The translations under genes were made by a program, and so were the position numbers. A model generated the notes under the pieces. The model ran no database searches and was not told where the DNA came from. It saw only the letters and a list, made by a program, of their open reading frames with translations. Below, one piece after another: positions 7,047 through 38,983 of a stretch of 64,000 nt of DNA. Numbering within the stretch: the first letter of the stretch is position 1; the number at the start of each line of letters is the position of its first letter. The DNA comes from Anaerotignum sp. MB30-C6 (GTDB lineage Bacteria > Bacillota > Clostridia > Lachnospirales > Anaerotignaceae), in contig NZ_CP133078.1 in the NCBI RefSeq assembly GCF_030908465.1, positions 1,488,001 to 1,552,000 on the forward strand, in the 5' to 3' direction.

Positions 7047-7056
7047 AGTCATACCT

Positions 7057-7071
7057 CCAATAAATTATTGG
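7057..7071 (-). promoter_or_regulatory. Perfect palindrome over the recombinase ribosome-binding site
   Basis: CCAATAA-A-TTATTGG overlaps the GGAGG that serves the recombinase start. It could be an RNA hairpin hiding the ribosome-binding site or an operator. Seen directly; the role is inferred. Confidence 0.4.
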
Positions 7072-7080
7072 AAAACATCT

Positions 7081-7242
7081 CTATTCAGCACGATTTATCT
7101 CATTTAAAACTTCTGCACCATGCTTTTCGATAATCTGAGAAAGCACATTTATGAAATCCTGATATGCTTTTGTTTTCTCAAATTTATGATTGGGGGCAGG
7201 AGCTTTAATAGCATCACTGGGGATATTTTTGACATTTTCCAT
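7081..7242 (-). CDS. Small element protein of unknown function (53 aa)
   Basis: A 53-codon frame begins MENVKNIPSDAIKAPAPN and ends with LNEINRAE. A perfect GGAGGTG stands 6 bases before the ATG, and the stop lies 34 bases before the recombinase start, so the two are probably co-transcribed. The C-terminal half is predicted to be one amphipathic helix. Position next to the recombinase suggests a recombination accessory role, but there is no recognisable excisionase motif. I do not recognise the family. Confidence 0.6.
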   Translation of the reverse strand: MENVKNIPSDAIKAPAPNHKFEKTKAYQDFINVLSQIIEKHGAEVLNEINRAE

Positions 7243-7849
7243 TCGCAATCACCTCCAAGTGCATTGCTTACATAGAGTATAAGCAATTTTGTTATTTATG
7301 AAAAGTTTGTCATCACGTTATAAATAGCATAAATAAACGCACCGCAAATTTACTTTAAATAAAAGTGCGGTGCGATTAAATTCACCTGTTTGCCGTATTT
7401 GCCACGCACCCCGACAAAGGGGATATTTTGAGTTGCTGTTGGCACAGCTATCATAGCCCCGTTGTACCGTAGCTTGTCCTTTCAAAAGCCACGCATACCG
7501 CAGGAACTCCCCCTGTTTCTATCGTCTTGGGGGCGTAACGTCACGAAGTATCATTGTCCCTTATGGGGTCATTGCGGCGAACGTGCTACCGCTCGGTCTA
7601 ATGGCTGCATTTATCGCTTCGACTACTGGAATATCCATGCTCATAAAGGCTCTAATCAATTATTTGGTTTCCTATTTTGGCAAGAGTGTTACAGCAGTCA
7701 TCATGGCGATGCCCATTATGTCGCTTTGCTTTTCAGCCACATAAGTTTCGTACTCAAAATACCGTATATTCGGTTGTCAAGGAACATGGGGAAGGATTTT
7801 ACCTCCCTCTATATACCCTGACTTTTTTCCTTAGGAAACGGAACGTGAT
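7243..7849. other. Intergenic stretch with a hairpin and a possible hydrophobic gene relic
   Basis: At 7338-7346 and 7366-7374 stand the arms CGCACCGCA/TGCGGTGCG of a strong hairpin. From about 7558 to 7749 one plus-strand frame without an ATG or ribosome-binding site reads as a run of hydrophobic residues (for example VPYGVIAANVLPLGLMAAF), as if left from a membrane protein. The overlapping longer plus frame starting at 7462 has no such character. Nothing else could be identified. Confidence 0.3.
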
Positions 7850-8217
7850 TTAGAAAAAACTTTTTAATTTTTTTTCTATGGTATGTAATCCTCTTTCTAT
7901 ACCAATACGGACAGCTTTTTCACTTACACCTTCTGCTTCGGCAATGGCAGTCTTACTCATGCCCATAAAATAATGAGCGTAGATCCGTTTTGCCTGCTTG
8001 TCCGGCAAAGAAGCAATGGCAGAATGGAGCTGCTGACTTGTGAGCTTACGTTCGTAAATCTCATCGGGTGAAAGAGATATAAACAAGATGTCGTGTTCAA
8101 TTCCATCTTTACGATCAAGAGAGTAGTACGCTTTGTAGCGGTATTTTTTTCTTTCGTATGCGGACTCTGTTCTTGTGTATAGTAGGGATAATAATCTTTC
8201 AAATTAATTGTTTTCAT
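7850..8217 (-). pseudogene. Sigma-70-region-4-like element regulator, internally deleted and frameshifted
   Basis: The ATG at 8217 opens MKTINLKDYYPYYTQE, the usual start of the sigma-like ORF of Tn1549-type elements. Then the frame changes: the remainder of the protein (SAYERKKYRYKAYYSLDR onward, through SLSPDEIYERKL, PDKQAKRIYAHYF and the C-terminal HTH SKTAIAEAEGVSEKAV) runs in another frame to 7850. Compared with the family, about 20 codons between these parts are missing, and the loss is not a multiple of three. The protein normally regulates excision or transfer genes. A C-terminal HTH fragment could still be made only from a non-standard start. Confidence 0.7.
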
Positions 8218-8458
8218 GGTTTTACCATCCTTTCGATTTTTTGAGTTTGCTGAAATCGAAAGGATAGTGGTGGAGAGCGGCAGTGAAGCTCTATAAACAC
8301 AAAAGAGTCCGGCTGCATAGCGCAATCGGACATAAGGGAATTATTAGCAATTATATAATGATGTGTGTGTTCATGTTTGTGGTCATTATATCCTATTGGG
8401 GAATATAAGCTTTTTTTAATAAGCTATAAATTGTCAAGTTTTGTCGATGAAAAATTAA

Positions 8459-17902: not shown

Positions 17903-18127
17903 CTACTCAAAATCAGCCACAAGCTCACCCGAAAGGCTCTCAAATTCCTCATCACTCATGGATGACAGCTTATCCATAACCGTTTTGGTAAGTGCAAGCA
18001 GTTCTGTTTCATCTGCCGCAAGGTGGTTTTGCATTTCCGAAAGCTCAGAGAGCAAATCAGCCCTTGAGCCTGTATTGTAAATGCACATCAAATTGCTTTC
18101 CTCTACTGTAAATCTACTCATAATCAT
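17903..18127 (-). CDS. Transposon-transfer assisting protein (TTRAP family)
   Basis: A 74-residue acidic protein with the family pattern MSRFTVEESNLMCIYNTGSRADLL and DETELLALT. TTRAP proteins are found on conjugative transposons and are thought to help transfer; the mechanism is not known. Its start overlaps the stop of the ArdC-like gene upstream by 4 bases (ATGA type), so translation is coupled. The ATG at 18121 (third codon) is equally possible. Confidence 0.85.
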   Translation of the reverse strand: MIMSRFTVEESNLMCIYNTGSRADLLSELSEMQNHLAADETELLALTKTVMDKLSSMSDEEFESLSGELVADFE

Positions 18128-20457
18128 CGCTCCATTTCCGCACCGATTGAGGGTGCTTTTTTTGATTTTTCGTGGTGCTGTGATGGCTTTGTTGCAAGCT
18201 GTTCCATAACCGATTGTTTTTCTTCCCTGCGTGTAGCAGCAAGCAAATCCATAAGGGAGATAGGCTTGCCGTTTTCGGATTGTTCCTCAAGCTCTGCCAC
18301 AGTAGGCTGATTGTTGATGATACCGTCAATCTGATTGAAGTTTTGCTCTGTGGACAGCTCAGCAGTGCGGAGGGGGTTATCTATATTCACAATAGCAAAG
18401 GCACGGGTGCCGTTGCCCATAATGAGATACGCTCCGTTATCTGAAGAATGATGATAGCCGTAGCCTGCCTGCTCCATTTGCTCCTTGGTCATAGTGGTAA
18501 GTGAAAAACTACCTCTTGGGGTATCAATTTTTTCACCTGTCACATAGCTGTCCGGCACAAGGGGTGTCGGCTCTAAAAACTGTGGCAGTTCCTTAAAACC
18601 AAAGCTATCCACATAATGACAGGATACAGCGCCATCTACATTCAAGGCAACGATGTCACTGACAGAAAGCGAATGTCCCTTAAAATCTGTGGGGTGGTTT
18701 ACATTAAACTGCTCATACAGCTTATTAAGAGAATGGCTTTTATCGCCGTCATAATCAGTAAGAGGGGCGGCATAGACAAGCTCATAGTTGCCACGCTCTA
18801 CGGTCAGTCCAAGACTATTGAGCTGCGTTGTTCCCTTAAAGCGGTAATCACGCATATCCTCACTGCATTTTAGCTGATAAATGGCATAAGCATTTTCGTC
18901 TTGTTCCATGAAAAGCTGTTCCTTGACTTCTTGTGAGAGCTTGCCATCGCCTTTTATTTCTTCATACTCCTGTAATGCAAGCCAGTCTACTTTTTCGATA
19001 CCAAACAGACCATCGTGATTTTCAATATCCACACGGTCAAAAGCCATCGCTTCGATGTTGTTCTCATAAAGCAAATATATGGCTAAATCCTGTTCCCACA
19101 GCTCTATGGCTCGCTCTTTAGAAAGCGGTAACAGCTCATCGGCGGTATAACCATAGGCATTGCGGTCATCAATGCTCACCGTGGGGTCGGGCATAGGATA
19201 GTCATGTTGGATAGGCTCATCAATCCTCTGTTCCTCGGTAGTTCTGCTTTCAAAATGTTCCATTAGGTCATCAAAGCCGTTCCAAACATCGTCAAGCACC
19301 AGTTTGCCGTCACCGTCCACAATAACACAGGCAGCACCGTCACCGTGTTCCTCATGCTCAAGAAGATAGTATTTTGTGCTGTCCACCACCTCGGTATCAA
19401 CTACATACCAAGTACCGATATGTCCGTCCACCGCAATGTTATAGCCGTCCTCGGTAATCTGCCCTTTGTTAAGGTCGGGGGCTTGCTCCGGCACAGATGC
19501 TTCAGTGGTCAAATCAATGCCACGCTCTTTTACAATTTCAGCAAAATGGGTATCAATGCCGGTTATCAGCTCTGATGAGGTTTTGTTGATGGTTTCCAGT
19601 GAAGCCCGAAGCTCGGCAAGTTCCTTGCCTTTGCTCCAAGAAGCAATATATCCCAAGCTATTCTCGGCGGTTTGTATGCCGTAATAGCTGCAAACAGCAA
19701 AGGAAATACTTTCTGCTTCAACTTCCTCTGTGTTGCGGTTTTTGGGCTTATTGGGCATTGGATTTTCGCCCTGCTGTGCTTGCAGCTCTTTTGCTATCTC
19801 TCGGTTATGCAAAAGAGAGTGTGCTACCTCGTGAATGGTGGCAGAAACGGTCTGCGCCCCGCTCATGCCCTCACGGATTGCAATGCGTTTTTCCTCTGTG
19901 TGATAGTAACCGTCGGTATCCTTGGGAAGTGGCATAATTTCAAGGGGAACAGGTTCGGTGCGTTTAATAGCTTCCATAAACACCTCAAATTGTGCCACAT
20001 TGCCTGTTAAATCGCTTGCAAGGGTGGGTAACGGCTCGCCCTCGGTTTGGGATACATCAAATACAGATACCACACGAAACATTGGTATCTGTACTTCCAC
20101 TTCCTCGGTCTGCACCTTGCCGTTTGTATCAAGGATAGGGGCTTTGGTTTGTGGGTCGAGTTTATCTCGTTCCTCCTTGATTTTATATGGTGTAGGTGCA
20201 ATAATTTTAATGCTTTTTTCGCCCTTTTTTACAAAGCGTGAAAAGCCATCTCGCCATTTGTTAAAGCCTGCCACAAGAGTGGCATCGGGCTTTTGCATGG
20301 AGATAAGCATGGTGTTGTTAAACGAGTATTTGTGAAAACGGCTCATGGTCTGAAGATAGCTTTTGTATTTGTCGCTCTTAAAAAGCTCTTTGATACCAGT
20401 TTCAATGCTGTCGGTTATTTCTTTTAACCGTTCTTTGGGGTTTTGTTTTTCTGGCAT
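18124..20457 (-). CDS. ArdC-like antirestriction / YodL / DUF4316 multidomain protein
   Basis: A 777-residue protein. Residues ~10-135 form the ArdC N-terminal ssDNA-binding domain (FHKYSFNNTMLI, PDATLVAGFNKW). A zinc-peptidase domain follows with H209-E210-x-x-H213 (IHEVAHSLLH) and EVEAESISFAVCSYYG. Residues ~330-385 match an LPD-type domain, ~510-560 a YodL domain (AYAIYQLK...MRDYRF), and ~640-740 the DUF4316 domain (VPDSYVTGEKI, TPRGSFSLT). In relatives these protect incoming ssDNA from restriction. The frame is complete with a GGAAT-type site before the ATG, and TTRAP is coupled downstream. Confidence 0.88.
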   Translation of the reverse strand: MPEKQNPKERLKEITDSIETGIKELFKSDKYKSYLQTMSRFHKYSFNNTMLISMQKPDATLVAGFNKWRDGFSRFVKKGEKSIKIIAPTPYKIKEERDKLDPQTKAPILDTNGKVQTEEVEVQIPMFRVVSVFDVSQTEGEPLPTLASDLTGNVAQFEVFMEAIKRTEPVPLEIMPLPKDTDGYYHTEEKRIAIREGMSGAQTVSATIHEVAHSLLHNREIAKELQAQQGENPMPNKPKNRNTEEVEAESISFAVCSYYGIQTAENSLGYIASWSKGKELAELRASLETINKTSSELITGIDTHFAEIVKERGIDLTTEASVPEQAPDLNKGQITEDGYNIAVDGHIGTWYVVDTEVVDSTKYYLLEHEEHGDGAACVIVDGDGKLVLDDVWNGFDDLMEHFESRTTEEQRIDEPIQHDYPMPDPTVSIDDRNAYGYTADELLPLSKERAIELWEQDLAIYLLYENNIEAMAFDRVDIENHDGLFGIEKVDWLALQEYEEIKGDGKLSQEVKEQLFMEQDENAYAIYQLKCSEDMRDYRFKGTTQLNSLGLTVERGNYELVYAAPLTDYDGDKSHSLNKLYEQFNVNHPTDFKGHSLSVSDIVALNVDGAVSCHYVDSFGFKELPQFLEPTPLVPDSYVTGEKIDTPRGSFSLTTMTKEQMEQAGYGYHHSSDNGAYLIMGNGTRAFAIVNIDNPLRTAELSTEQNFNQIDGIINNQPTVAELEEQSENGKPISLMDLLAATRREEKQSVMEQLATKPSQHHEKSKKAPSIGAEMER

Positions 20458-20618
20458 AGGGATGTATTCCTTTCAATATTTACATTTGGGTGTTTCTTTC
20501 TTTTTGGTGGCATGGTAAAATTAGTAATAAGGAAACCGCCCAATTTGATTTGGACGGTACAAACTCTTAAATATGTTTTTTAGTTGCAATTTACAAATAG
20601 AGGAGGAGGAAACTAATT

Positions 20619-21548
20619 ATGATATGTGCATATTGCGGAGAAGAATCAAAAGGTACAAAAGAACATATTATTTCTTGTGCTATATTAGATTTGTTCCCAG
20701 AGTGCTTTGCCACAATTGATAATATAAGAGGTAAAATTCATCAAGGAGACCCAATGGTGAAAGATGTCTGTGCAGTGTGCAATAATAAAAGAATTTCTTA
20801 TATTGACTCTTATGCTAAACAATTTGTTAGCACATACTTTATTCGTAAATATGATAAAGACGATAGTTTAGAATTTGAGTACGATTACACCTTGCTTCAA
20901 AAAGTTCTTTTAAAATATTCATATAATGATTTGCGTTCTCGCAAGGAAGATACTTCGTTCTTTACTAAATCCGTTTTAGAATTTTTGATGCATGAAGATA
21001 TTACTCAACCTCTAAGAAATGTAACCCTCTTGAGCGGTCTTGCTGTTAATACTTCCCCTGCTCCTGATTATATGTTCGGTAATAACAAGATTAGATGGGG
21101 CAAAAATCCTGCAATGCTCTCTAATAGCATTATCGAGCGTATAAACTATGAAACAGGAGAAATTCACCATAGAGAGAACAATTCTCGGCAAGAATTTGAA
21201 AAACTGAATTTTTCATATGTTTTTAGGTTTAACAGTGTACAATTTTTGTTATTGTGTTGGGAACATGATATTTCAGATGAGGAACTGCAAAAAAACAATA
21301 TTATACTCAAATATCAATATCCATACACTATGCTAACTGAAGAAGGTCATCATTCGCTGTCACGATGCACAAGTGAAACCACATATCATTTTGAAATGTT
21401 AATTGATGTTAGTTGGGGGCAAGGGATTTTTGATGATATAACTTGGATGCGTGGTACTTATTCAGATTCCAGTCAGCAATACTTAAAAGAAGTGGAAAAG
21501 GCGTGGAATAAAGAAGAAGAAAATCTTGCGAAAAAATTTCCACGATAA
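20619..21548 (+). CDS. HNH-type zinc-finger protein, probable endonuclease cargo
   Basis: A 309-residue protein. The N-terminus is CAYCGEESKGTKEHIIS, then DVCAVCNNKRISYIDSYAKQF: a C-x2-C, K-E-H, C-x2-C-N-N layout of small HNH nucleases. The C-terminal 230 residues are unassigned. It stands on the plus strand amid minus-strand transfer genes, so it is an insertion; its stop lies 10 bases from that of topB, in convergent order. GGAGGAGG precedes the ATG. The finger resembles that of the broken gene at 12536-13745. Defence or homing roles are both possible. Confidence 0.7.
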   Translation: MICAYCGEESKGTKEHIISCAILDLFPECFATIDNIRGKIHQGDPMVKDVCAVCNNKRISYIDSYAKQFVSTYFIRKYDKDDSLEFEYDYTLLQKVLLKYSYNDLRSRKEDTSFFTKSVLEFLMHEDITQPLRNVTLLSGLAVNTSPAPDYMFGNNKIRWGKNPAMLSNSIIERINYETGEIHHRENNSRQEFEKLNFSYVFRFNSVQFLLLCWEHDISDEELQKNNIILKYQYPYTMLTEEGHHSLSRCTSETTYHFEMLIDVSWGQGIFDDITWMRGTYSDSSQQYLKEVEKAWNKEEENLAKKFPR

Positions 21549-21558
21549 ATTTGTCAAT

Positions 21559-23622
21559 CTACTTTTTCACACCAAACTCCATTGTGAAATTCACATACTG
21601 CCCACCAGTGTCATCAAGGATAGCCACACAGTCATAGGTCTTGCCTGTCTTTTTGGAATAGCAGCCTGTGAGAGCTACCTTGCCGTTTTTGAGAAGCTCT
21701 GTAACAATCGCTTTTGTTACGGACTTTTTCTTTGCCGTGAAAAAGCGATTTTCTTTCCAAATGGCAAAACCACAAGCCTTATCTGAACAGCAAAAGCCCT
21801 TTTTGTTCTCGGTGACAGCACCACTGCAACGAGGGCATTTTCCTACGCTTTCACGGTCAGATGGGAAAAGAGTATCAGCTCCCTTAATTACTTCATAGGT
21901 CTTTACAAGGGCAGAGGTCATATTCACAATTTCTGATAAAAACGCATCAGCGGTCAGTTCTCCACGCTCCACAAGTTTTAGCTTTTCTTCCCACTCGGCA
22001 GTCATAAGCGGTGACTGCACCTGTTCGGGCAGTACGGTGATAAGGGCTGTGCCTTTGTGGGTGGCAGTGAAATATTTTACCTTTTTGTCACCTTTTCTTT
22101 CTGCAAGCCCCGATTTAATCAGCTTTTCCAAAATGCCTGCTCTCGTTGCCGGAGTGCCAATGCCTTTACGCTCGGTATCTACCTCGGCTTTGTTGGCATT
22201 TTCCATAGAAGAAAGCAGGGTGTCATCTGTAAAAGGCTTGGGCGGTGAGGTTTTGCCCTCTTTCATTTCAGCCTTTGCGGTAAAGACTTCTCCCTGGGCG
22301 ATACTCGGCAGGGCTTGGTATTTATCCTCTTTGTCCTGCTCGCCTTTATAGAGCTTTTGCACTGCCTTAAAACCGTCTTGAATTACGGTTTTGCCTTTGG
22401 CGGTAAAAAAAGACTCACCGCATTTTGCCGTGATAACTGTTTCGCTAAAACGGTGGGTATCACCTATGGCAACCAAAAGACGAATAGCAAGAAGAAGCAG
22501 GGTTTCACGCTCTCCGGCAGGCAAGCTCTGCACATCAAGCACCTTGATATTCATAGTAGGGATAATGGCATGGTGGTCGCTAACCTTTGAGCTGTCAATG
22601 AACTGTGCTGTATTTACTGGCAGCTCGGTAGCTTGTGGCATAAAAAATCCTGCCGTAGCTTTGGCTAAGACAGGAATAGTGTTTTCCATATCCTCGGTTA
22701 AAAATCTGCTGTCTGTTCGGGGATAGGTGATATACTTCTTTTCATAAAGGCTCTGTGCATACTGCAAGGTCTGTTCGGCGGTAAAGCCCAACAGTTTATT
22801 GGCTTCACGCTGTAAGGTAGTAAGGTCATAGAGCTTGGGCGGTTTTTCCGTCTTTTCCTTTTGCTCCACGCTTTCTATTGTGACATTTTGACCGTCACAG
22901 GCCTGCAAGATTTGCATAGCTTGTGCTTTACTTTTCAGCTTTTCGCCTATGAGAGAAAATCCATTACAGGTAAGGTGTACCATATAAAACGGCTCGGGCT
23001 TAAAGACGGAGATGGCTGCATCACGCTCACAAATCATAGCAAGGGTGGGTGACATCACCCGCCCAATGTTTAGAGTCTGCCCATAAAGGACAGAGAAAAG
23101 ACGAGTGGCATTGATACCAACAATCCAGTCCGCTTTTGCCCTGCACAGTGCCGCTTGATAGAGGTTGTCATATTCTTTGCCGTTCTTTAGATTTTCAAAG
23201 CCCTTTTGAATAGCCGTATCCTCAAGGGAGGAAATCCAAAGTCGTTTGACAGGCTTGTTACAGCCTGCCTTTTCATAGACAAGGCGGAAGATTAGCTCAC
23301 CCTCACGCCCTGCATCGGTGGCACAGATAACGGTATCTACTTGGCTGTCGTTTAAGAGCTTTTTCAGTACAGTAAACTGCTTTTTGGTACTGGATGAAAC
23401 TTGGTACTGCCAAAGGGCAGGAAGTATGGGTAAGTCCCCATACCTCCATTTTGCATATTTTTCATCGTAGCTGTCAGCGGCGGCAAGTTCCACCAAATGC
23501 CCCACGCACCACGATACAATGTAATTATTCCCCTCGGTGTAGCCGTCCTTGCGGCTTGTTGCACCCAATATCTTAGCGATACTCTGTGCAACGCTTGGTT
23601 TTTCTGCAATGACTAACTGCAT
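21559..23622 (-). CDS. topB: DNA topoisomerase III of the element
   Basis: A 687-residue type IA topoisomerase that would relax or decatenate DNA during transfer. The TOPRIM domain begins MQLVIAEKPSVAQSIA with E7 and continues to ATDAGREGELIF. The active-site Tyr lies in KKYITYPRTDSRFL. The C-terminal zinc-finger region has CPRCSG and CCSDKACGF. I chose the ATG at 23622 because of AAGGAGGGATAAAAAT before it; the longer frame from 23676 lacks a site. The upstream small gene ends 5 bases before the ATG. Full length for plasmid/ICE TopB. Confidence 0.93.
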   Translation of the reverse strand: MQLVIAEKPSVAQSIAKILGATSRKDGYTEGNNYIVSWCVGHLVELAAADSYDEKYAKWRYGDLPILPALWQYQVSSSTKKQFTVLKKLLNDSQVDTVICATDAGREGELIFRLVYEKAGCNKPVKRLWISSLEDTAIQKGFENLKNGKEYDNLYQAALCRAKADWIVGINATRLFSVLYGQTLNIGRVMSPTLAMICERDAAISVFKPEPFYMVHLTCNGFSLIGEKLKSKAQAMQILQACDGQNVTIESVEQKEKTEKPPKLYDLTTLQREANKLLGFTAEQTLQYAQSLYEKKYITYPRTDSRFLTEDMENTIPVLAKATAGFFMPQATELPVNTAQFIDSSKVSDHHAIIPTMNIKVLDVQSLPAGERETLLLLAIRLLVAIGDTHRFSETVITAKCGESFFTAKGKTVIQDGFKAVQKLYKGEQDKEDKYQALPSIAQGEVFTAKAEMKEGKTSPPKPFTDDTLLSSMENANKAEVDTERKGIGTPATRAGILEKLIKSGLAERKGDKKVKYFTATHKGTALITVLPEQVQSPLMTAEWEEKLKLVERGELTADAFLSEIVNMTSALVKTYEVIKGADTLFPSDRESVGKCPRCSGAVTENKKGFCCSDKACGFAIWKENRFFTAKKKSVTKAIVTELLKNGKVALTGCYSKKTGKTYDCVAILDDTGGQYVNFTMEFGVKK

Positions 23623-23626
23623 ATTT

Positions 23627-23791
23627 TTATCCCTCCTTATCCTGTTTAGGGGCTTCGACTTTTTCATGCACAACAATCAGTTTGCGGATTTTCTGCTCCT
23701 TTTTGGGCGGTCTGCCCTTGGCAGGAGCAGAGGAATACTGCGGCTTCTGCATCATCATTTTTTCAAATACGCTGTCTGTAAAATAGGTCAT
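23627..23791 (-). CDS. Small basic element protein (54 aa)
   Basis: A 54-codon frame: MTYFTDSVFEKMMMQKP, then a Pro/Lys-rich centre (GRPPKKEQKIRK) and EKVEAPKQDKEG. It begins by an ATGA overlap with the stop of the DUF4366 gene and ends 5 bases before topB, so it lies in a tight transfer operon. Small proteins of this opening are usual at this place in Tn1549-like elements. Function unknown. Confidence 0.75.
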   Translation of the reverse strand: MTYFTDSVFEKMMMQKPQYSSAPAKGRPPKKEQKIRKLIVVHEKVEAPKQDKEG

Positions 23792-24498
23792 TTCACATCG
23801 TCCTCGCTTTCCGCTGCAAAATCCTCCTGTTCCTCAGAGATAGGCTCATATTCCTCATCGTCCTCATCGCTGTAATCATATTCATTTACATTGGGGTTGC
23901 TCTGCGGCTTTGTCTTATTTTTTGCTACCTTGAAATAGTAGAAAATACCACCACCGATTAAGCTCACCACAAGGACAAGTGCCAAAATCCCCACTGGATT
24001 GCCTTTTTCCGTTTCGGGCTGTGGCTCGTCAGTAGGAGCGGTTACTTCGGCGGCTTTGCCTGTGCATTTTGTTTTGTCAGTGCTGCATACAGGGCAATCG
24101 GCATTTACTGCACCCACTTCGCATTTATCGGTACAAGAGCAAACTTTAGGCTCTACTGTGCCGTCCTCCATAAGAGCAAGCAAGTCAGCTTCGTCTACCA
24201 TGTTGAGCAGATAAACATTGTCCTCTTTGCCTGCTCGGTCGATGACAAGATAGAAGTAGTTGCCGTTCTTGGATACAGCGGTAATGAACTGCTTATCAAT
24301 CTCGTCTGTTCGCTCCAAATCGTCCACAAGGGTTAAATTGCCCTCGGGGGTAAGAGGGGTGGTAGACGATGTTTCGGTGGTGACAGGCTCTGTGGTATCT
24401 TCTCCACCACCACTGGCAAAGGCTGTGGTAGAAAAAGCGGTAAAGCAAAGCACCGTCACAAGTATAACGGCGAAAATACGGATTTTAGATTTCTTCAT
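23788..24498 (-). CDS. DUF4366 exported membrane protein
   Basis: A 236-residue protein. A signal peptide (MKKSKIRIFAVILVTVLCF...TTAFASG) leads to a Thr/Ser-rich linker, then the DUF4366 domain with YFYLVIDRAGKEDNVYLLNMV, a Cys-rich stretch (CSCTDKC, CPVCSTDKTKC), a membrane span (GILALVLVVSLIGGGIFYYF) near 175-195 and an acidic tail. It would display the domain outside the membrane with the tail inside, as part of the conjugation apparatus. The start at 24498 is set by CAGGAGGAAAAC. It overlaps DUF4315 by 14 bases. Confidence 0.88.
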   Translation of the reverse strand: MKKSKIRIFAVILVTVLCFTAFSTTAFASGGGEDTTEPVTTETSSTTPLTPEGNLTLVDDLERTDEIDKQFITAVSKNGNYFYLVIDRAGKEDNVYLLNMVDEADLLALMEDGTVEPKVCSCTDKCEVGAVNADCPVCSTDKTKCTGKAAEVTAPTDEPQPETEKGNPVGILALVLVVSLIGGGIFYYFKVAKNKTKPQSNPNVNEYDYSDEDDEEYEPISEEQEDFAAESEDDVK

Positions 24499-24715
24499 TC
24501 TTGTTTTCCTCCTGTTTTTCAGATAAAAAAGGCACACCGCTTTTGCTGCGGTATGCCATAATCACATCGTTTAAATTTTCTGTGCTGATTTTTGCACCTC
24601 GGATAAGCCCGATAATTTCAAGGTTTTCAAACTCGGTCTTTTGCTTATTCAGCTCGTCCCATTTCTCTTGCAAAAGCACCATTTTGTCCTCAGTTTTCTT
24701 CATATCGGACAACAT
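24485..24715 (-). CDS. DUF4315 family protein
   Basis: A 76-residue protein with a coiled-coil N-terminus (KKTEDKMVLLQEKWDELNKQK) followed by NLEIIGLIRGAKISTENLNDVI, the mark of DUF4315. In related elements it follows the cell-wall hydrolase and VirB4 genes; none is present upstream here. The ATG at 24703 (MKKTEDKM) is an alternative start. No good ribosome-binding site is visible ahead of 24715, in agreement with a truncation of the operon at this point. Confidence 0.82.
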   Translation of the reverse strand: MLSDMKKTEDKMVLLQEKWDELNKQKTEFENLEIIGLIRGAKISTENLNDVIMAYRSKSGVPFLSEKQEENKNEEI

Positions 24716-26029: not shown

Positions 26030-26485
26030 ATGAAAATGACGGAATTTGATATACGCCAATGTGTTAATTATATCACATTAAATAATACAAAGAAATTGAG
26101 TGAAATCTTTGGAAAGTGGCTAGATGGCTCTGGTATTACGAGGATACAGTGGATTGCACTCTTCTTTTTAAAAACCAACGGTAAACTCTCTCAAAGAGAA
26201 CTTTCACAGGCAATGGAGATTAATGATTCCAGCGCTTTAAGGTTGGTTGACCGATTGGAAAGAGATGGTTTTGTAACCCGCACGAGAAGTAAGGAAGATC
26301 GAAGAGTCATTCATTTGGATTTGACACAGAGAGGTTCAGACCTCATGGATAAATTATTGCCAATTGGTGAGCAGTTTAACCAAGTCCTCATCCAAGGGAT
26401 ACCACAAGAAGAAATTGAAATTTTTATCAACGTTCAAACAAAGATGTATAAAAATATCATAAATGACGAAAGATCTCAGATATAG
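26030..26485 (+). CDS. MarR family transcriptional regulator
   Basis: A 151-residue winged-helix regulator. The HTH is NGKLSQRELSQAMEINDSSALRLVDRLERDG (~58-88) and the wing is RTRSKEDRRVIHLDLT. Proteins of this family bind palindromes as dimers and respond to small molecules or oxidants; there is no Cys here except C12, so a thiol switch would have to use that one. A GAGGGGAAC site precedes the ATG. The next gene has its own promoter with a near-palindrome over the -10 box, a likely target. Ends at a terminator whose loop contains its stop codon. Confidence 0.9.
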   Translation: MKMTEFDIRQCVNYITLNNTKKLSEIFGKWLDGSGITRIQWIALFFLKTNGKLSQRELSQAMEINDSSALRLVDRLERDGFVTRTRSKEDRRVIHLDLTQRGSDLMDKLLPIGEQFNQVLIQGIPQEEIEIFINVQTKMYKNIINDERSQI

Positions 26486-26505
26486 CTCTGAGATTTTTAT
26501 TTTTG
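26473..26505 (+). terminator. Intrinsic terminator of the MarR gene
   Basis: Stem ATCTCAGA/TCTGAGAT (26473-26480, 26487-26494) with TTTTATTTTT behind it. The MarR stop codon lies in the stem-loop. Confidence 0.85.
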
Positions 26506-26518
26506 TGCAAAAATCTTA

Positions 26519-26565
26519 TTGATTTTAAAAATCCTATTTGCTATAATAATAATTGCATAGGCAAA
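26519..26565 (+). promoter_or_regulatory. Sigma-A promoter with overlapping operator candidate
   Basis: TTGATT (26519-26524), 17 bases, TATAAT (26542-26547). The half-sites TTTGCTAT (26537-26544) and ATAGGCAAA (26557-26565) form a near-palindrome over the -10 box. It drives the AhpD-like/Lpd/LplA genes; binding by the adjacent MarR protein is inferred. Confidence 0.65.
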
Positions 26566-26600
26566 CTTTAGTATGACAAATAAAAAATGGAGGTTATCTT

Positions 26601-26954
26601 ATGTACAATGTTAGAGAAATGTTGAATGGTTTTGTAGGTGGTTTAGAGAACTTAGCGACAACAAATGGTGAAGCCGTAGGCGCATTTATGGGTTTACTTG
26701 GTGCAACATATGAGCCAGGTGCAGTAGATATTAAGACAAAGGAACTTATCAGTGTTGCTATCGGATGTTACAACAGATGTGAATATTGTATTGTATACCA
26801 TTCATATAAGGCTCTAGAAGCTGGTGCTACTAAAGAAGAAATCATTGAAGCGGCAATGGTTTCAGTAGCATTTGGCGGTGGACCTTCAATGGCGTATTCT
26901 GTAACGTTATTAAAAGAGTGTTTAGAAGAATTTGCAAATGATTTTACAGCGTGA
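26601..26954 (+). CDS. AhpD-like carboxymuconolactone decarboxylase family protein
   Basis: A 117-residue CMD-fold protein. It carries the complete AhpD-type redox signature E-x11-C-x2-C-x3-H: E48, C60, C63, H67 (KELISVAIGCYNRCEYC then IVYH). In AhpD these residues form a disulfide/peroxidase centre reduced by a lipoyl domain. An extra C56 is present. A GGAGG precedes the ATG. The gene lies 13 bases before the dehydrogenase that carries its own lipoyl domain, which is the partner AhpD needs. I infer a lipoyl-dependent disulfide or hydroperoxide reductase; the substrate is unknown. Confidence 0.87.
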   Translation: MYNVREMLNGFVGGLENLATTNGEAVGAFMGLLGATYEPGAVDIKTKELISVAIGCYNRCEYCIVYHSYKALEAGATKEEIIEAAMVSVAFGGGPSMAYSVTLLKECLEEFANDFTA

Positions 26955-26967
26955 ATAGGGTGATGAA

Positions 26968-28677
26968 ATGAAAGATATTATAATTGACAAGATGTCTGGT
27001 CATGATCAAGAGGCGAAAGTTGGACAAGTTAAAGTAGCCGTTGGCGATGAAGTTCAAGAGGGAGATATCCTACTAACGCTTGAATCAGGTAAGGGTGCTG
27101 TTAAAATTTTAGCGAGCGTTCATGGTCTGATTCAGTCTTTAGATGTCCAAGATGGCGATGTCGTAAAGAAAAATCAGAAAGTTGGTGTCATCAAAGTCGC
27201 TGCAGGTTACCAATGCGAGAAAACTGATCCACCAAAGAAAAAGGGCTACAGTTTTGGAATCAGCACCCCGATGAAGGAAGACATTCACTGTGATGTCTTA
27301 ATCGTTGGGGGCGGTCCTGGAGGTTACGTAGCAGCCATTAGAGCATCGCAACTTGGCAAGAAAACGGTTTTGGTTGAGAAAGATGCCCTCGGAGGTACGT
27401 GCCTTAACTACGGTTGTATTCCAACAAAAGCTTTAGCGCACAGTGTCGAAGTTCTAGAAGAGATGAAAAGTGCTTCTAAACTGGGCTTTCAAGTGGATAA
27501 CATCCAAATAGATTTTCAAAAAACCATGGCCAATAAGGATCAGGTTATCCAAACCTTGGTCGGTGGTATTGGGGGTTTGATGAATAGCCATCAAATTCGA
27601 GTAATCGATGGTGAAGCTGTTGCAATAGATGCTCAAACTATTGTCGTTAAGACTAAGAAGATCGATGCGACGATTAAATTTGATAAATTGATCATTGCCG
27701 TGGGATCTAGTGCCTTTAAATTGCCGATTGAGGGAAGTGACTTGTGTGATATTCTCACCAGCACAGAAGTACTGGGGCTTAAAGAATTACCAAAATCATT
27801 AACCATTATCGGTGGCGGTGTCATCGGTATGGAAATCGCATTTATTTACAATGCACTAGGGAGTGATGTCAGTGTCGTGGAGTTCTTGCCTAGAGTGATG
27901 AGCGTATTAGATTCTGATGTCAGTGATGTGGTATACCAATCAGCCATTGAAAGAGGCATTAAAATCTATGAAAGTGCGAAGGCGACAAGCATTCGTGAGA
28001 CGCTAGATCAGACCTTTGTAACGGAAATAGAAGTAGAGGGCCAAGCGCATCTCATCAGTAGCGAGAAAGTTCTTATGGCGGTTGGTCGTAAAGCGAACTT
28101 AGATGCACTTGATCTTGAAAAATTGGAAGTAGAACTTAATAAGCGTTCAAATGGTATCGCTGTTAATGAACACATGCAGACCAGCAATGAGAATATCTAC
28201 GCAATCGGAGATGTAACCAATATCATTCAATTGGCACATGTGGCTTCTCATCAGGGGATGGTAGCAGCTGAGCATATCGCAGGACAAGATAGCAAAATGC
28301 ATTACGATTTAGTTCCTTCAACCATTTTTACAATGCCAGAAGTTGGCGCAGTTGGACTCAATGAAGTAACTGCTCAAGCAGAAGGTTACTCAATCAAAGT
28401 GGTTAAATTTCCATTTATGGCATCTGGTAAAGCAGTTGCAATGCATGCTACAGAGGGCTTTGTAAAGCTTATTGTTGATACGGAGAACCAGGTACTCTTG
28501 GGTGGAGCAATTGTGGGAGCGCACGGTACAGATTTGATTGCGACGATCAGTGAACTCATTAGAAGTAAAACAAAAATCCCAGATGCCCTTGAAGCCATTT
28601 ATGCGCATCCAACCTTAGGCGAAACCATTCATGAGGCTTTATTGATGGCAGATGGAAGAGGAATTCACTTTGGATAA
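26968..28677 (+). CDS. Dihydrolipoamide dehydrogenase with N-terminal lipoyl domain
   Basis: A 569-residue protein. Residues 1-78 form a biotinyl/lipoyl domain with the modifiable lysine in LESGKGAV (K42). Then comes the FAD site DVLIVGGGPGGYVAAI, the redox pair C145/C150 in GGTCLNYGCIPT, the NAD site SLTIIGGGVIGMEIAF, and the C-terminal dimer-interface HPTLGETIHE with the catalytic His-Glu pair. It passes electrons from NADH through FAD and Cys to lipoyl-lysine. No E1 or E2 genes lie nearby, so it does not look like part of a ketoacid dehydrogenase or glycine cleavage set. It overlaps lplA by 26 bases. Confidence 0.95.
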   Translation: MKDIIIDKMSGHDQEAKVGQVKVAVGDEVQEGDILLTLESGKGAVKILASVHGLIQSLDVQDGDVVKKNQKVGVIKVAAGYQCEKTDPPKKKGYSFGISTPMKEDIHCDVLIVGGGPGGYVAAIRASQLGKKTVLVEKDALGGTCLNYGCIPTKALAHSVEVLEEMKSASKLGFQVDNIQIDFQKTMANKDQVIQTLVGGIGGLMNSHQIRVIDGEAVAIDAQTIVVKTKKIDATIKFDKLIIAVGSSAFKLPIEGSDLCDILTSTEVLGLKELPKSLTIIGGGVIGMEIAFIYNALGSDVSVVEFLPRVMSVLDSDVSDVVYQSAIERGIKIYESAKATSIRETLDQTFVTEIEVEGQAHLISSEKVLMAVGRKANLDALDLEKLEVELNKRSNGIAVNEHMQTSNENIYAIGDVTNIIQLAHVASHQGMVAAEHIAGQDSKMHYDLVPSTIFTMPEVGAVGLNEVTAQAEGYSIKVVKFPFMASGKAVAMHATEGFVKLIVDTENQVLLGGAIVGAHGTDLIATISELIRSKTKIPDALEAIYAHPTLGETIHEALLMADGRGIHFG

Positions 28678-29647
28678 ATTCAAAAAACATACATTAGTAA
28701 TAGGTAGGAAAGCAGATACCATTGATAATCTTTCGATTGAAAACTACCTTATGAAACGATGCGAGCCCGATGAAATCATACTCTTCTTATGGCAGAGTCA
28801 TCACACCGTGGTTATAGGGTGTCACCAAAACCCCTATAAAGAATGCAACCTACCCCTTATGGAAAAAGACCAAGTTCAATTGGTTAGACGTAAATCGGGT
28901 GGTGGTGCAGTGTATCATGACCTTGGAAATTTGAATTTCTCATTTATAACGCATTTAGATCGAGCGGATGTTCAAAGAAATTATCAATTGGTTATTAAGG
29001 CGTTAAAGGCTTTTGGGATTGAGAGTACACTAAGTGGTCGCAATGATTTGACGGTCTCGGGCAGTAAATTTTCTGGGAATGCTTTTCTAGAAGAAGATGG
29101 TGTTCACTGTCATCATGGTACTTTACTGATTGAATCCTCTTTAGAGCTATTGTCAAAGTATTTGACACCCTCTAAACTAAAAATTGAATCCAAGGGCATC
29201 GACTCTGTGAGATCTAGGGTTGTCAATTTGAGTACACTTTCAGAAAAGTGTACTGTATCAGAAGTGAGGCATCAATTGATTGAAACGTTTAAGTCAGCGT
29301 TCGACGGCGTCTTCCATGAAGAGGGAACAATTTTGCCAGAATGTTATGAGGCGTATAAATCTCATTATGATCAGTGGTCGTGGCAAATAGGGAGTATTCC
29401 GCAGTTTAATATTGAATACGAATCCCGTTTAAGCTGGGGGAGTATCATGGTTCAGCTGGAAGTGCAAAAGGGTATTGTCGAAAACTGCCATTTGTCTACG
29501 GACGCACTAAATGATGAAAACTTTCAACAATTAGGCCAGGCTTTCATAGGTAAACGATATCAAAAAGAAACTATTTATCAGTGTATTCATCAATGGATTT
29601 CCGATGAGACCATTAGAAGAGATCTTATTGAGATGATAATAATTTAA
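28652..29647 (+). CDS. Lipoate-protein ligase A
   Basis: A 331-residue ligase that activates lipoate with ATP and joins it to a lysine of a lipoyl domain. Marks: LWQSHHTVVIGCHQNPYKE, RRKSGGGAVYHDLGNLNFSF and SGSKFSGNAF, then the small C-terminal domain. It starts inside the dehydrogenase gene; a TTG at 28670 behind GAAGAGGAA would be an alternative start. The likely target is K42 of the adjacent dehydrogenase, making the operon self-sufficient for lipoylation if lipoate is taken up. Followed by a strong terminator. Confidence 0.93.
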   Translation: MEEEFTLDKFKKHTLVIGRKADTIDNLSIENYLMKRCEPDEIILFLWQSHHTVVIGCHQNPYKECNLPLMEKDQVQLVRRKSGGGAVYHDLGNLNFSFITHLDRADVQRNYQLVIKALKAFGIESTLSGRNDLTVSGSKFSGNAFLEEDGVHCHHGTLLIESSLELLSKYLTPSKLKIESKGIDSVRSRVVNLSTLSEKCTVSEVRHQLIETFKSAFDGVFHEEGTILPECYEAYKSHYDQWSWQIGSIPQFNIEYESRLSWGSIMVQLEVQKGIVENCHLSTDALNDENFQQLGQAFIGKRYQKETIYQCIHQWISDETIRRDLIEMIII

Positions 29648-29654
29648 AAAATTG

Positions 29655-29698
29655 AAACTGTTGCACTAAATAATGATTTAGTGCAACAGTTTTTTTTA
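29655..29698 (+). terminator. Strong intrinsic terminator of the lipoyl cluster
   Basis: A perfect 16-bp stem (AAACTGTTGCACTAAA against its complement) with a 6-base loop and T8. Confidence 0.92.
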
Positions 29699-30083: not shown

Positions 30084-30854
30084 CTAATTTAAGCTACGTT
30101 TCATTTTTGCCACATAATTAGCAAGAGGAGCTTCGGCATTTTGCCCATATTCCTCAATGATTTTTACAATGGCACTGCCCACAATCACACCATCGCAAAA
30201 GTTGGAAATTTCTTTCACTTGCTCCGGGGTTGAGATACCAAAACCAACGCAAATAGGAATATTTGAAGCAGCCTTGATGGTTTGCATCATCATCTGAAGG
30301 TCTGTCGTGATTTCCTTTCTGACACCGGTTACACCCATAGAAGAAACAACATAGATGAAACCCTTGCCTTGCTGTGCAATCATGGAAATTCTATCCTCCG
30401 ACGTTGGCGCAATGAGAGAAATGAGGTCAACCTCATTTTCATTTGCATAAGGCAAAATCTCAATTTTTTCTTCAAAGGGTAAATCAGGAATAATAATTCC
30501 ATCTATGCCTACGGCCCTACATTTTTGAAAGAATTTTTCATAGCCATAGGAAAAAACAGGGTTTAAGTAGGTTAAAAACACCAAGGGTACGTCTGTTTTC
30601 TGCCGCACACGCTGCACCATATCGAATATTTTATCAGTTGGGGTGCCTGCGTTTAAAGCCCGAATGTTTGCACGCTCTATGACCTTGCCTTCGGCGATTG
30701 GATCGGAAAAAGGAATGCCAATTTCAATTAAATCAGCGCCTGATTTTTCCATTGTTAGGATATATTGTTCGGTTTTTTCAAGGCTTGGATCTCCTGCAGT
30801 TAAAAATGCGATAAATGCTTTGCCGTTTTTGAATGCGTTATTAATTTTACTCAT
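30084..30854 (-). CDS. trpA: Tryptophan synthase alpha subunit
   Basis: A 256-residue TIM-barrel enzyme that splits indole-3-glycerol phosphate into indole and glyceraldehyde-3-phosphate. The catalytic Glu and Asp are in [15 protein letters not shown]; phosphate is bound by VGFGIST and GVIVGSAIV. It forms the alpha-beta complex with TrpB, whose gene overlaps it by 8 bases upstream. Last gene of the operon. Length normal. Confidence 0.97.
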
Positions 30855-32586
30855 GAAAATGAACCCCCTTATGTCTTGCGATGGCAGCTACGTCTTTATC
30901 TCCTCTGCCTGATATACAAATAATAATGACACTGTCTTTATCCATTGTTGGTGCAACCTTTTTGACATAGGCAAAGGCATGGGCAGATTCGATTGCCGGA
31001 ATAATGCCCTCTGTTTTGGAAAGATATTCAAAGGCATCAATTGCCTCATCGTCGGTGATGGGTACATAGGTTGCTCTGCCTGTATCATGGAGATTTGCAT
31101 GCTCGGGACCGATGCCCGGATAATCCAGCCCTGCGGAGATGGAATAAACCGGGGCAATTTGTCCGCATTCGTCCTGACAGAAATAAGATTTCATTCCATG
31201 AAATACGCCCAAGGTTCCATTGGCAATGCTTGCGGCATTTTTATCGGTATCCACGCCATGGCCTGCTGCTTCGCAGCCCACAAGTTGTACCGATAAATCG
31301 GGGATAAAATTATAAAACATACCCATTGCATTACTGCCACCGCCAACACAAGCTACCACCATATCGGGAAGTTTATTCTCTGCCTCTAAAATCTGAGCCC
31401 TTGCTTCTTGGCTGATAACACTTTGAAAATCACGTACGATGGTTGGAAAGGGATGAGGCCCCATAACGGAACCCAAAACATAGTGAGTATCATGAACCCT
31501 TGCAGTCCATTCACGCATGGTTTCGTTTACGGCATCCTTTAAGGTTTGCGTACCGCTTTTAACTGTGTTTACCTTTGCACCTAATAGTTCCATTCTAAAA
31601 ACATTTAACGCTTGTCGTTGGGTGTCCTCCTTACCCATGAAAATTTCGCATTCCATGTCTAGCAATGCCGCGGCGGTTGCCGTTGCAACCCCATGCTGAC
31701 CTGCACCAGTTTCAGCAATGACTCTGGTTTTTCCCATTTTTTTCGCAAGAAGAACTTGCCCCAGAACGTTGTTGATTTTATGAGAGCCTGTGTGGTTCAA
31801 ATCCTCTCGTTTAAGATAGATTTTTGCACCGTCTAAATCCTTGGTCATTTTTTCGGCATAATATAAAAGAGAGGGTCTGCCTGCATAGTTATTTAAAAGC
31901 TCATGTAACTCAGCTTGAAATGCCTTATCATTTTTATAAAATTCATATTGTTGCTCCAAATGAATGATTTCATTCATCAATGTTTCAGGGATATATTGCC
32001 CGCCATGTACTCCAAATCTACCTTTTGTCATTTTTACACTCCTCACAATTTCCATTATTTTTTTCTTATCTTTCACGCCATTTGTTTCAACGCCACTTGA
32101 AATATCAATCCCAAAAGGGCAGAAGCTCTTTGCTTGAGCGATGTTTTCTATATCAATTCCACCAGCAATGAAAAAAGGCTTTTCTGTTTTTGGGATGCGC
32201 ATCCAATCGAAGGACTGCCCACTTCCGGCGATTGCAGAATCAAACAAAAGAAAATCTGCATTTAGAGGGATTTTTTCCCCTATACGCAGTGCCTTGATGA
32301 CAGGCACATTTAATTTTTCTATGTAAGCTTCTGTTTCTTTTCCATGTAATTGAACCACATCAATAATTTTTTCGTCTATTGCTTTTTGCACTACTTGGAT
32401 GTTTTCATCCACAAACACACCAACAGCTTGAATATGAGGATTTAACCTCGCTTTCAATTTTTTTGCCTGAGATAAGGTGACCTGACGCTTGCTTTTTGCA
32501 AAGACAAAGCCAATATAATCAGGCAGTGACTCATTTACAAAGTCAATATCCTCCTCTCGAAACAGACCACAAATTTTTATCTTCAT
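30847..32586 (-). CDS. trpF-trpB: Fused phosphoribosylanthranilate isomerase / tryptophan synthase beta
   Basis: One 579-codon frame. Residues 1-185 are TrpF: KICG with the catalytic Cys6, [16 protein letters not shown] with the catalytic Asp, and AGGI. Residues 186-579 are Trp[19 protein letters not shown]-binding Lys in [16 protein letters not shown], and [10 protein letters not shown]. No stop or linker lies between. The TrpB part begins with its own Met (ATG at 32031) preceded by GAGGAGTG 6 bases away, so TrpB can also start internally. Thus both a fusion and free TrpB may be made. It overlaps trpC by 4 and trpA by 8 bases. Confidence 0.95.
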
Positions 32587-37207: not shown

Positions 37208-37795
37208 TTAGATTTTAGGATATTTGGCATCCCATACAAGTATTCTGCGAGAAAATATTAGTGCTGTAAAAATTATTGAGAAGCCTGAAAAGAATATCAG
37301 CTAAATCTGTATTTTTAGGACATAGCTCAAAGAACTATGAGTATATTCCTGATTTTGAAAGCCTGCCTTATGATATTAAAACTAATAAATTTTTGCATGG
37401 TTATGAAAAAATTTCAAAACAGGAAGATAAATATGATTCGAAATAAAGATGATATAGTGGAGGACTATTGAAATCTTATTATAGTAAAAATGGGAGGCCG
37501 TAATCATTTTGTGATTTTATCAGTCTAATGCTTAAATCTGTAACTTTGCAATAATATACTATATGATTTTAATTTTAAGATGTATAATTTATAAAAATAC
37601 TTCAGAGGAGTTATATTTATGAATATTACATCTTTTTTTATATACTGCATTATTGTCAAGCTTTGTTATTCATACTACAATGCACTATCTACTTTAATAA
37701 TAATTCATTCAACGGTTATTATGATTTACAAAAAATGTAAAATGTTTTATACTAGTATTAACGATCATACCGACAAATTACATGGAAGGGAGTTA

Positions 37796-38983
37796 ATGAT
37801 GAAAAAGATAATCGTTAAAATCTTGGGGATATTAGTAGTATGGACTTTATTCCTGCCAAGCACAAGTGCATGTGCTTACGAGGAAAAAACAAGCTGGAAA
37901 GAACTTGCTTCTATGCCCACTTCTAAATTCTCATTTCAATCAGAAGTAATTGATGGTAAAATTTATACCACTGGAGGTTGTTGGAACAGCGATTACACAA
38001 AAAATTTAGCACTCACAGAAGCTTATGACCCTTCTACAAATACATGGGCGAATCTAGCTTCTATGCCCGCTCGGTGGGAATTCGAAACAGAAGTTCTTGA
38101 TGGTAAGCTTTACGTCATTGGAGGGACCAAGATGGATACTTGGGAACTTATTTCATCTACAGATGTTTATGACCCTTCTACAAATACATGGACAACGTTG
38201 ACATCTATGCCTATAGCTCTGGCAGAGGTTGACGGCTTTCAGACAGAAGTTGTTAACGGTAAAATCTATGTCTTTGGAGTTATTCCAGACGGTACTTGTA
38301 CATCAGTAACTGAAGTTTATAATCCCACCACTGATACATGGGCTATTTTGGCTCCTATGCTAACGCCTCGTGAGGGATGTCAAACAGAGGTCATTGACGG
38401 AAAAATTTATGTCATTGGAGGATATAGAGGTTTGCTCAAAATCGGGGGTGCTTCCAATGTCGATTCTCTTTCCTCTGCAGAAGTTTATGATCCTTCTACC
38501 GACAAATGGACGACGCTGGCTTCTATGTCAGAAACAAGGTGTTACCTTCAAACAGAGGTCATTGACGGAAAAATTTATGCCCTTGGAGGTTGGAACGTTA
38601 AGGTTGGAGATATCACAGGAAAGGTACTATCATCAACAGAAGTTTATGACCCTTCTACAAATAGATGGACGACACTGGCAGATATGTCCACACCTCGCCA
38701 AATTTTCCAAACAGAAGTCATTGATGATAAGATTTACGCCGTTGGTGGCTATGGCCCCTTTTACACTGATAATCAATTATTATCACCCTTAGATTATGAT
38801 AATAGATTATCATCAACAGAAGTTTATGATCCGTCCACGAATAAATGGACGACGCTGGAAAATATGTCAAAAAAAAGATCTTGTCTTCATACAGAAGTAA
38901 TTGATAAGGTCATTTATGCCATCGGTGGAGCGAATTCCACCTATTTGGAATCCTATGCTGTTCCTACTAGTGCAACAAAATAA
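37796..38983 (+). CDS. Secreted Kelch-repeat protein
   Basis: A 395-residue exported beta-propeller protein. I take the ATG at 37796 (GGAAGGGAG before it); the frame is open further upstream but without signal. A signal peptide (MMKKIIVKILGILVVWTLF, then PSTSACA) is followed by six to seven Kelch repeats of about 50-60 residues, each with EVIDGKIYxxGG and VYDPSTNxWTTLxxM. Such propellers bind proteins or carbohydrates at the cell surface. No cell-wall anchor is visible. It stands alone between a promoterless A/T-rich stretch and a terminator; its partner is unknown. Confidence 0.88.
   Translation: MMKKIIVKILGILVVWTLFLPSTSACAYEEKTSWKELASMPTSKFSFQSEVIDGKIYTTGGCWNSDYTKNLALTEAYDPSTNTWANLASMPARWEFETEVLDGKLYVIGGTKMDTWELISSTDVYDPSTNTWTTLTSMPIALAEVDGFQTEVVNGKIYVFGVIPDGTCTSVTEVYNPTTDTWAILAPMLTPREGCQTEVIDGKIYVIGGYRGLLKIGGASNVDSLSSAEVYDPSTDKWTTLASMSETRCYLQTEVIDGKIYALGGWNVKVGDITGKVLSSTEVYDPSTNRWTTLADMSTPRQIFQTEVIDDKIYAVGGYGPFYTDNQLLSPLDYDNRLSSTEVYDPSTNKWTTLENMSKKRSCLHTEVIDKVIYAIGGANSTYLESYAVPTSATK

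Follow-up and report, generated by a model that had tools for sequence, protein, structure and literature searches.

A MarR-linked, putative lipoyl-AhpD redox module in anaerobic bacteria and a predicted selenocysteine form of its repressor

Introduction

In the NADH-Lpd-DlaT-AhpD-AhpC peroxidase of Mycobacterium tuberculosis, the lipoyl arm is borrowed from the E2 component of a 2-oxoacid dehydrogenase and the peroxidase is AhpC (PMC12028322). Here we describe a locus of related content within a 64,000-nucleotide stretch of the Anaerotignum sp. MB30-C6 genome (the window, to which coordinates refer unless another locus is named). Its four genes, all on the plus strand, encode a MarR-family repressor (marR), an AhpD-like protein (ahpD), a lipoyl domain fused to dihydrolipoyl dehydrogenase (lpd) and a lipoate-protein ligase (lplA). 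The locus shares with the mycobacterial system Lpd, a lipoyl arm and a CxxC AhpD with an E-x11-CxxC-x3-H centre, but its arm is fused to Lpd, it has a ligase of its own, and neither E2 nor AhpC is linked to it. We are fairly confident that the set is a self-sufficient, transferable redox-response module, namely a lipoyl-AhpD relay under MarR control. We hold with still greater confidence that the repressor represents a selenoprotein family of anaerobic Bacillota that uses selenocysteine (Sec) as its redox trigger, controls this dedicated, transferable relay and has switched repeatedly between Sec and Cys.

The lipoyl-dependent peroxidase Ohr and its repressor OhrR likewise place a MarR-family Cys sensor before a lipoyl-reduced peroxidase (PMC4486171, PMC11211675), Ohr being reduced by lipoylated SucB and Lpd (PMC4486171). 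There, the lipoyl arm is a shared one, the enzyme is the OsmC-fold Ohr rather than AhpD, the sensor Cys lies two residues away and, in the sources consulted, OhrR has no Sec form. Lipoyl proteins outside 2-oxoacid metabolism that have their own ligase genes are known from sHdr sulfur oxidation, where the partners of LbpA belong to an Hdr-like complex and there is neither AhpD nor an Lpd fusion (PMC6067878), and the SirTM - GcvH-L - LplA2 - macrodomain operon has a lipoyl carrier and a ligase of its own as part of a putative redox response (PMC4518038). Each thus resembles the present locus in its dedicated ligase. The SirTM operon differs in its GcvH-like carrier and its control by ADP-ribosylation. 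Our search of the open-access literature returned no account of a MarR-AhpD-lipoyl-Lpd-LplA operon, prior notice elsewhere being possible.

Known prokaryotic selenoproteins share with the repressor a Cys/TGA pair and SelB-bearing anaerobic clostridial hosts (PMC9312934; PMC13188914; PMC12013277); in the portions of these sources at hand, the nearest in kind is FmdB, a 'putative regulatory protein', and no MarR is listed. A MarR or other helix-turn-helix selenoprotein appears neither in the 2022 table of 87 families (PMC9312934 Table 1), nor in the accessible portion of a 2026 review (PMC13188914), nor in the deep-Sep paper (PMC12013277), and an open-access search for selenocysteine together with MarR gave nothing relevant, again with prior notice elsewhere possible.

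Results

Gene content and conserved redox centres

The genes marR (26030-26485, 151 aa, Cys form), ahpD (26601-26954, 117 aa), lpd (26968-28677, 569 aa) and lplA (28652-29647, 331 aa, overlapping lpd by 26 bp) lie where a preliminary description of this DNA had placed them, and profile searches put each product above the curated cut-off of its family. MarR matches MarR_2 (PF12802) at 59.8 bits against a cut-off of 27 (E = 2.9e-16), and the AhpD-like protein matches CMD (PF02627, 76.6 against 23) and ahpD_dom (TIGR00778, 53.5 against 27.8). The fusion protein scores 521.9 against 408.8 for lipoamide_DH (TIGR01350) and 35.8 against 22.1 for Biotin_lipoyl, and the third enzyme is by family a lipoate-protein ligase, with 333.4 against 280 for lipoyltrans (TIGR00545) and 59.8 against 24 for the C-terminal domain (PF10437).

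The full redox centre that had been read in the AhpD-like protein, E48-x11-C60-x2-C63-x3-H67, proved invariant in all 65 aligned sequences; C60 and C63 are Cys in every relative, with no Sec. The protein matches M. tuberculosis AhpD (PDB 1gu9) over residues 46-95, aligned with chain positions 116-164, so that, if the alignment is ungapped, E48, C60, C63 and H67 correspond to positions 118, 130, 133 and 137. Tyr62, also invariant in the family, falls at the equivalent of position 132, between the two cysteines, where the mycobacterial protein has His. The lipoyl domain is indeed fused to its own dehydrogenase, and its Lys42 is present in 43 of 43 aligned lipoyl-Lpd sequences, mostly within the motif ESGKG, ESAKG or ETKKG. 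The CxxxxC pair C145/C150 and the C-terminal H547/E552 of Lpd are conserved at 0.98, the exception being one broken open reading frame (ORF).

AhpD evolves far more slowly than its neighbours, with a mean pairwise identity across 26 complete operons of 77.6%, compared with 51.2% for MarR, 52.9% for Lpd and 45.8% for LplA; this hints at tight constraint on the surface or chemistry of AhpD. We considered whether the contrast was an artefact of locating loci through AhpD and rejected this, the same contrast being present in loci found through MarR (identity to the window: AhpD 68-75%, MarR 41-42%, Lpd 40-42%).

As to transcription, the preliminary description had spoken of one operon, and the four genes are adjacent. 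However, a terminator-like hairpin covers the marR stop codon (26469-26498, plus strand, 12 bp stem, T-rich tail), and the gap before ahpD holds a promoter-like site (26519-26547, plus strand, TTGATT-17-TATAAT with TG before the −10 element). Because of these two features, ahpD-lpd-lplA is probably a separate transcript, with marR a linked regulator and not simply the first gene of a shared one. A predicted operon terminator follows lplA (29654-29693, plus strand, 18-bp stem and T run); like the hairpin and the promoter-like site, it is a consensus match only.

Distribution and self-sufficiency of the gene set

With the AhpD-like protein as query, a single pass over 84,980 species genomes yielded 67 loci, 64 of them with a readable ahpD ORF. 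Co-conservation, for which the preliminary description had proposed a check, is widespread among these 64: 43 have MarR directly before ahpD, 42 have lipoyl-Lpd directly after it and 34 have LplA nearby. The same set is present in Clostridia, Tissierellia, Mycoplasmatota, a Fusobacteriaceae metagenome-assembled genome (MAG) and a gammaproteobacterium (Psychromonas); for Oceanirhabdus W0125-5 and one Mycoplasmatota strain the chromosome is complete. The arrangement is therefore not due to chance. The four-gene set is mobile and probably a transferable module. Clustering of all ORFs around the loci revealed no fifth conserved gene family, only scattered response regulators and transporters. When MarR was used as the query against 398 genomes of the phylum, a sample drawn without reference to AhpD, seven orthologues were recovered at E <= 7.3e-46 (next match, 4.2e-30), six of which adjoin ahpD. 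Extra sampling of 10 genomes around one of the orthologue-bearing genomes, G185, added no new members.

Profile searches across all 67 loci detected neither an E2 core nor GcvH. The earlier statement that the operon contains no ketoacid dehydrogenase is thus borne out, and nothing was found of the E2 or GcvH genes beside homologous clusters that would have spoken against it. Genome-wide, 22 of the 42 genomes with an AhpD-Lpd pair lack a 2-oxoacid dehydrogenase E2, and 12 lack both E2 and a true GcvH, which was counted at E < 1e-25, the weaker matches inspected being biotin carriers. None of these 12 has LipA above the cut-off, and 11 have exactly one LplA above it, located by contig and coordinates beside the lipoyl-Lpd of the operon. 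Other strong Biotin_lipoyl domains, inspected in G004 and G008 (Oceanirhabdus) and in G010, G017, G026, G029, G032, G034 and G035, carry the biotin motif AMKM or AMKL. Since the chromosome of Oceanirhabdus W0125-5 (G004) is complete and its four other strong Biotin_lipoyl domains are all of this AMK[ML] type, no lipoyl acceptor or ligase was found there outside the operon. For part of the hosts, the self-containment of the gene set is a computed result and not a guess.

The wider claim that everything needed lies in one operon accordingly holds genome-wide for 12 of the 42 hosts. The window's own genome differs in containing two E2 loci (one with a lipoyl-Lpd near 675-679 kb; one with a double-lipoyl E2 and E1-beta near 986-988 kb), as well as LipA, which has an LplA next to it near 1,093 kb, and a further LplA at 1,145 kb; GcvH was not found in it. 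With this second lipoyl-Lpd and two more LplAs at hand, the relay need not be isolated in this organism. Also weighing against a self-sufficient module are several Lpd-bearing operons without LplA next to lpd (such as L025, L027, L029, L030 and L047) and the carriage of MarR-AhpD only by Romboutsia and Terrisporobacter.

The gene set also varies in composition. In rumen Lachnospiraceae/Clostridiales (L064:2729-5578), AhpD is accompanied by a lipoyl domain and LplA even without the Lpd fusion: a Biotin_lipoyl domain is followed by a 320-aa protein, whose start by eye resembles a CobW/G3E GTPase, and then by LplA and AhpD. Locus L063, near 5767-8348, looks like the same variant. Lpd seemingly has two tandem lipoyl domains instead of one at L032:8382-10403 and L066:8352-10256, and in Defluviitalea phaphyphila (L012:8375-10497) lpd is broken between its lipoyl and FAD domains, possibly through an assembly error, the break being frameshift-like with no sign of a Sec codon. 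At six loci (L034, L035, L037, L054, L056 and L057, from Romboutsia, Terrisporobacter and a related MAG), an operator-like palindrome accompanies MarR-AhpD, with no lipoyl-Lpd or LplA nearby. Psychromonas hadalis (L023) has ahpD-lpd-lplA with neither MarR nor operator in the stretch examined, a pattern that would fit horizontal transfer of only the enzymes, and L105 (G387) has a MarR orthologue directly behind an lpd, both AhpD and operator being missing from the stretch examined.

The MarR repressor and its predicted operator

The AlphaFold model of MarR (mean pLDDT 91) has a MarR/SlyA fold and superposes on DNA-bound SlyA (3q5f) with Z = 17.1 and a root-mean-square deviation of 1.9 over 139 aligned residues. 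Among the matches listed in the structure comparison, all are of MarR fold and OhrR does not occur, which is neutral either way. Cys11 lies in helix 1 of the model, where pLDDT is about 72. Membership in the 1-Cys OhrR group was rejected, since the cysteine is two residues off and the NCBIfam OhrR model gives 41.5 bits against a cut-off of 200; judged from its sequence, the repressor is OhrR-like without belonging to that group.

A 27-bp near-palindrome, in its best form TTGCTATACTAATAATTAGTATAGCAA, lies over the −10 element of ahpD in nearly all loci with MarR. In the window, the candidate operator TTGCTATAATAATAATTGCATAGGCAA (26538-26564, plus strand) overlaps the −10 element and scores 30.9 bits with the motif of 44 intergenic regions, the best score in the 64 kb; the next independent site reaches 17.2 bits, and in five random sequences matched for dinucleotide composition the top sites reach 8.4-20.0. 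A second operator-like site overlaps the first on the minus strand (26553-26579, 18.8 bits), and no site above 8 bits occurs upstream of marR itself. Outside the sample from which the motif was built, sites before ahpD score 30.4 (L002), 25.2 (L017), 35.1 (L099 and L100), 32.2 (L101), 24.4 (L103) and 25.6 bits (L104), while AhpD loci without MarR, such as L023 (Psychromonas), L046 and L048, mostly have no operator. Because the predicted operator overlaps the ahpD promoter, recurs out of sample in MarR loci and is mostly missing where MarR is missing, it offers direct, if computed, support for control by the operon's own MarR, as had been suggested; the operator itself had gone unnoticed in the preliminary description.

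A probable selenocysteine form of the repressor

Twelve MarR ORFs with an oddly late start turned out to have an upstream in-frame TGA, exactly at the Cys11 column and preceded by a conserved MFFNLNK-like start; L011 and an independent genome, G185 (L104), bring the TGA loci to 14. Species with the TGA form include Acetoanaerobium pronyense, Lutispora saccharofermentans and Oceanirhabdus. Among the 45 sequences in our tree, this column reads TGA in 14 and TGT or TGC in 31, with no other residue, and the reading frame is intact downstream of the TGA in all 14 loci, two of which belong to chromosomes that are complete or in a single contig. The window carries Cys at this column (TGT at 26060-26062, plus strand), and its genome lacks SelB. 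All 13 TGA genomes tested have SelB (13 of the 14, G185 not among them; in G025 as two adjacent pieces), compared with 22 of 36 Cys genomes, an association with a chance of about 0.006 (hypergeometric count by hand). On the maximum-likelihood tree the Sec/Cys label requires 6 changes, at least 4 of which are forced by well supported branches; Lutispora saccharofermentans (Sec), for example, stands beside Lutispora sp. BIN23 (Cys). In a phylum-wide MarR search, the orthologue of G185 was the only one among the matches listed to contain an in-frame TGA. No tRNA-Sec was found within 4 kb near selB of G004, which is not evidence of absence.

Downstream of the TGA, RNAalifold predicted a 7-bp hairpin with a GGUC loop (alignment columns 63-80) from 13 TGA sequences and no structure from 31 Cys sequences. 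Taking this hairpin together with a weaker stem (columns 35-61), 88.8% of cells are paired in the TGA set versus 67.4% in the Cys set, and two-sided changes indicative of covariation occur at pairs 36-60, 39-57, 66-77 and 69-74. Through a synonymous change, the loop of the closest Cys relatives (Sedimentibacter and Lutispora BIN23) is GGCC or GGAC. An Rfam search of six TGA loci returned only a T-box and no selenocysteine insertion sequence (SECIS).

Repeated exchange of an otherwise invariant Cys for Sec alone is the hallmark of a chemically reactive site, and Cys11 would accordingly be one. The MarR of the TGA relatives is very likely a selenoprotein, and the repressor is very probably a redox sensor that works through Cys or Sec.

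Discussion

On the computed gene content, conservation, operator, Cys/Sec pair and sole-lipoyl hosts, we propose the following course of events. MarR would bind the palindrome over the ahpD promoter and repress ahpD-lpd-lplA until an electrophilic oxidant oxidises or otherwise modifies Cys11 (Sec in many relatives) in the N-terminal helix and so releases the operon. LplA would attach lipoate, scavenged in hosts without LipA, to Lys42 of the lipoyl domain. The fused Lpd would then pass electrons from NADH through FAD and the CxxxxC disulfide to the lipoyl arm, the arm would reduce the Cys60-Cys63 disulfide of the AhpD-like protein, and this protein may turn over a peroxide or a disulfide or polysulfide.

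What the relay reduces is the point at which a different account fares best. The module may be the same while both its signal and its substrate are sulfane sulfur, polysulfides or low-molecular disulfides, which would make the relay a polysulfide/disulfide reductase of anaerobes; we regard this as a tentative but serious possibility. Several MarR-family sensors respond to sulfane sulfur as well as to peroxides, with MgrA, OhrR, MexR and E. coli MarR sensing it through cysteine (PMC11211675), and the hosts are mostly anaerobes. An AhpC-type 1-cysPrx_C domain (PF10417), moreover, was found in 9 of 16 operon genomes tested, including the window's own, and not in the other seven (G004, G008, G014, G026, G029, G034 and G041, several of them drafts); as G004 is complete, a peroxidase partner of the Mycobacterium type does not seem to be required. 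Against the sulfur account, the AhpD proteins studied to date are linked to peroxidases, and no sulfur gene is conserved in the neighbourhood. The same survey bears on the idea that, as in M. tuberculosis, the AhpD-like protein serves solely to reduce a 2-Cys peroxiredoxin (AhpC) whose gene lies elsewhere. Although the nine genomes with the domain would allow this, clustering of neighbouring ORFs never placed AhpC among the operon genes, and because it is missing from seven of the 16 genomes, AhpD probably acts directly or with a partner other than AhpC; we therefore think this idea unlikely.

Several observations on the repressor count against the proposed module. By profile alignment, Cys11 pairs with residue 13 of B. 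subtilis OhrR, two before Cys15 (the OhrR sequence used reproduces the score and coordinates of 1z91). The hairpin is degenerate or lacking in L030, codon-shuffle tests on individual sequences give weak values (about 0.07-0.09 in a typical case), and the Cys set too, since it is homologous, has a higher pair count than its shuffles. The apical loop of the putative SECIS lies about 49 nucleotides after the TGA, which is further than the spacing of classical bacterial SECIS elements. Some bacterial SECIS elements do not fit the consensus (PMC9312934). The distant hairpin, together with an ATG or GTG soon after the TGA in some loci, would also suit a true stop, either with a leader peptide and internal initiation or in pseudogenes. 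Nevertheless, the residues before the TGA match those of the Cys orthologues, a purine-rich, ribosome-site-like sequence precedes the ATG of the MFFNLNK start in many loci, the TGA always falls in the Cys column with an intact frame behind it, and every TGA genome tested has SelB; we consider a true stop very unlikely. The proposal that lpd and lplA have strayed from a 2-oxoacid dehydrogenase or lipoate-salvage locus and have an unrelated AhpD-like neighbour, for which one could cite the commonness of lipoyl-Lpd fusions in acetoin and pyruvate dehydrogenases (one is in the window's genome) and the existence of orphan MarR-AhpD pairs, deserves hardly any credence in view of cross-phylum co-conservation without E1, E2 or GcvH, genomes with no other lipoyl acceptor, and the L064 variant with its stand-alone lipoyl domain, LplA and AhpD.

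If the module works as proposed, lipoate would serve in some bacteria solely as a stress-response wire, without a ketoacid dehydrogenase or glycine cleavage, and the operon would be a natural minimal system in which to measure lipoyl-to-AhpD transfer. A Sec repressor, if real, would carry selenium chemistry beyond enzymes into gene control and tie together selenium supply, redox state and transcription. The natural Sec/Cys pairs allow one to ask directly what a sensor gains from selenium, and gene finders that stop at TGA truncate the Sec-form repressors.

Neighbouring genes in the window

Just upstream of the operon, positions 18124-24537 hold mobile-element genes, among them those for an ArdC-N/LPD18/YodL protein, a topoisomerase and a CD1107-like protein. 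Downstream, minus-strand tryptophan genes at 30847-32586 include one for a 579 aa fusion of PRA isomerase and a PLP enzyme (TrpF-TrpB-like), and positions 37619-38983 encode a bacterial 454-aa protein that consists mostly of Kelch repeats.

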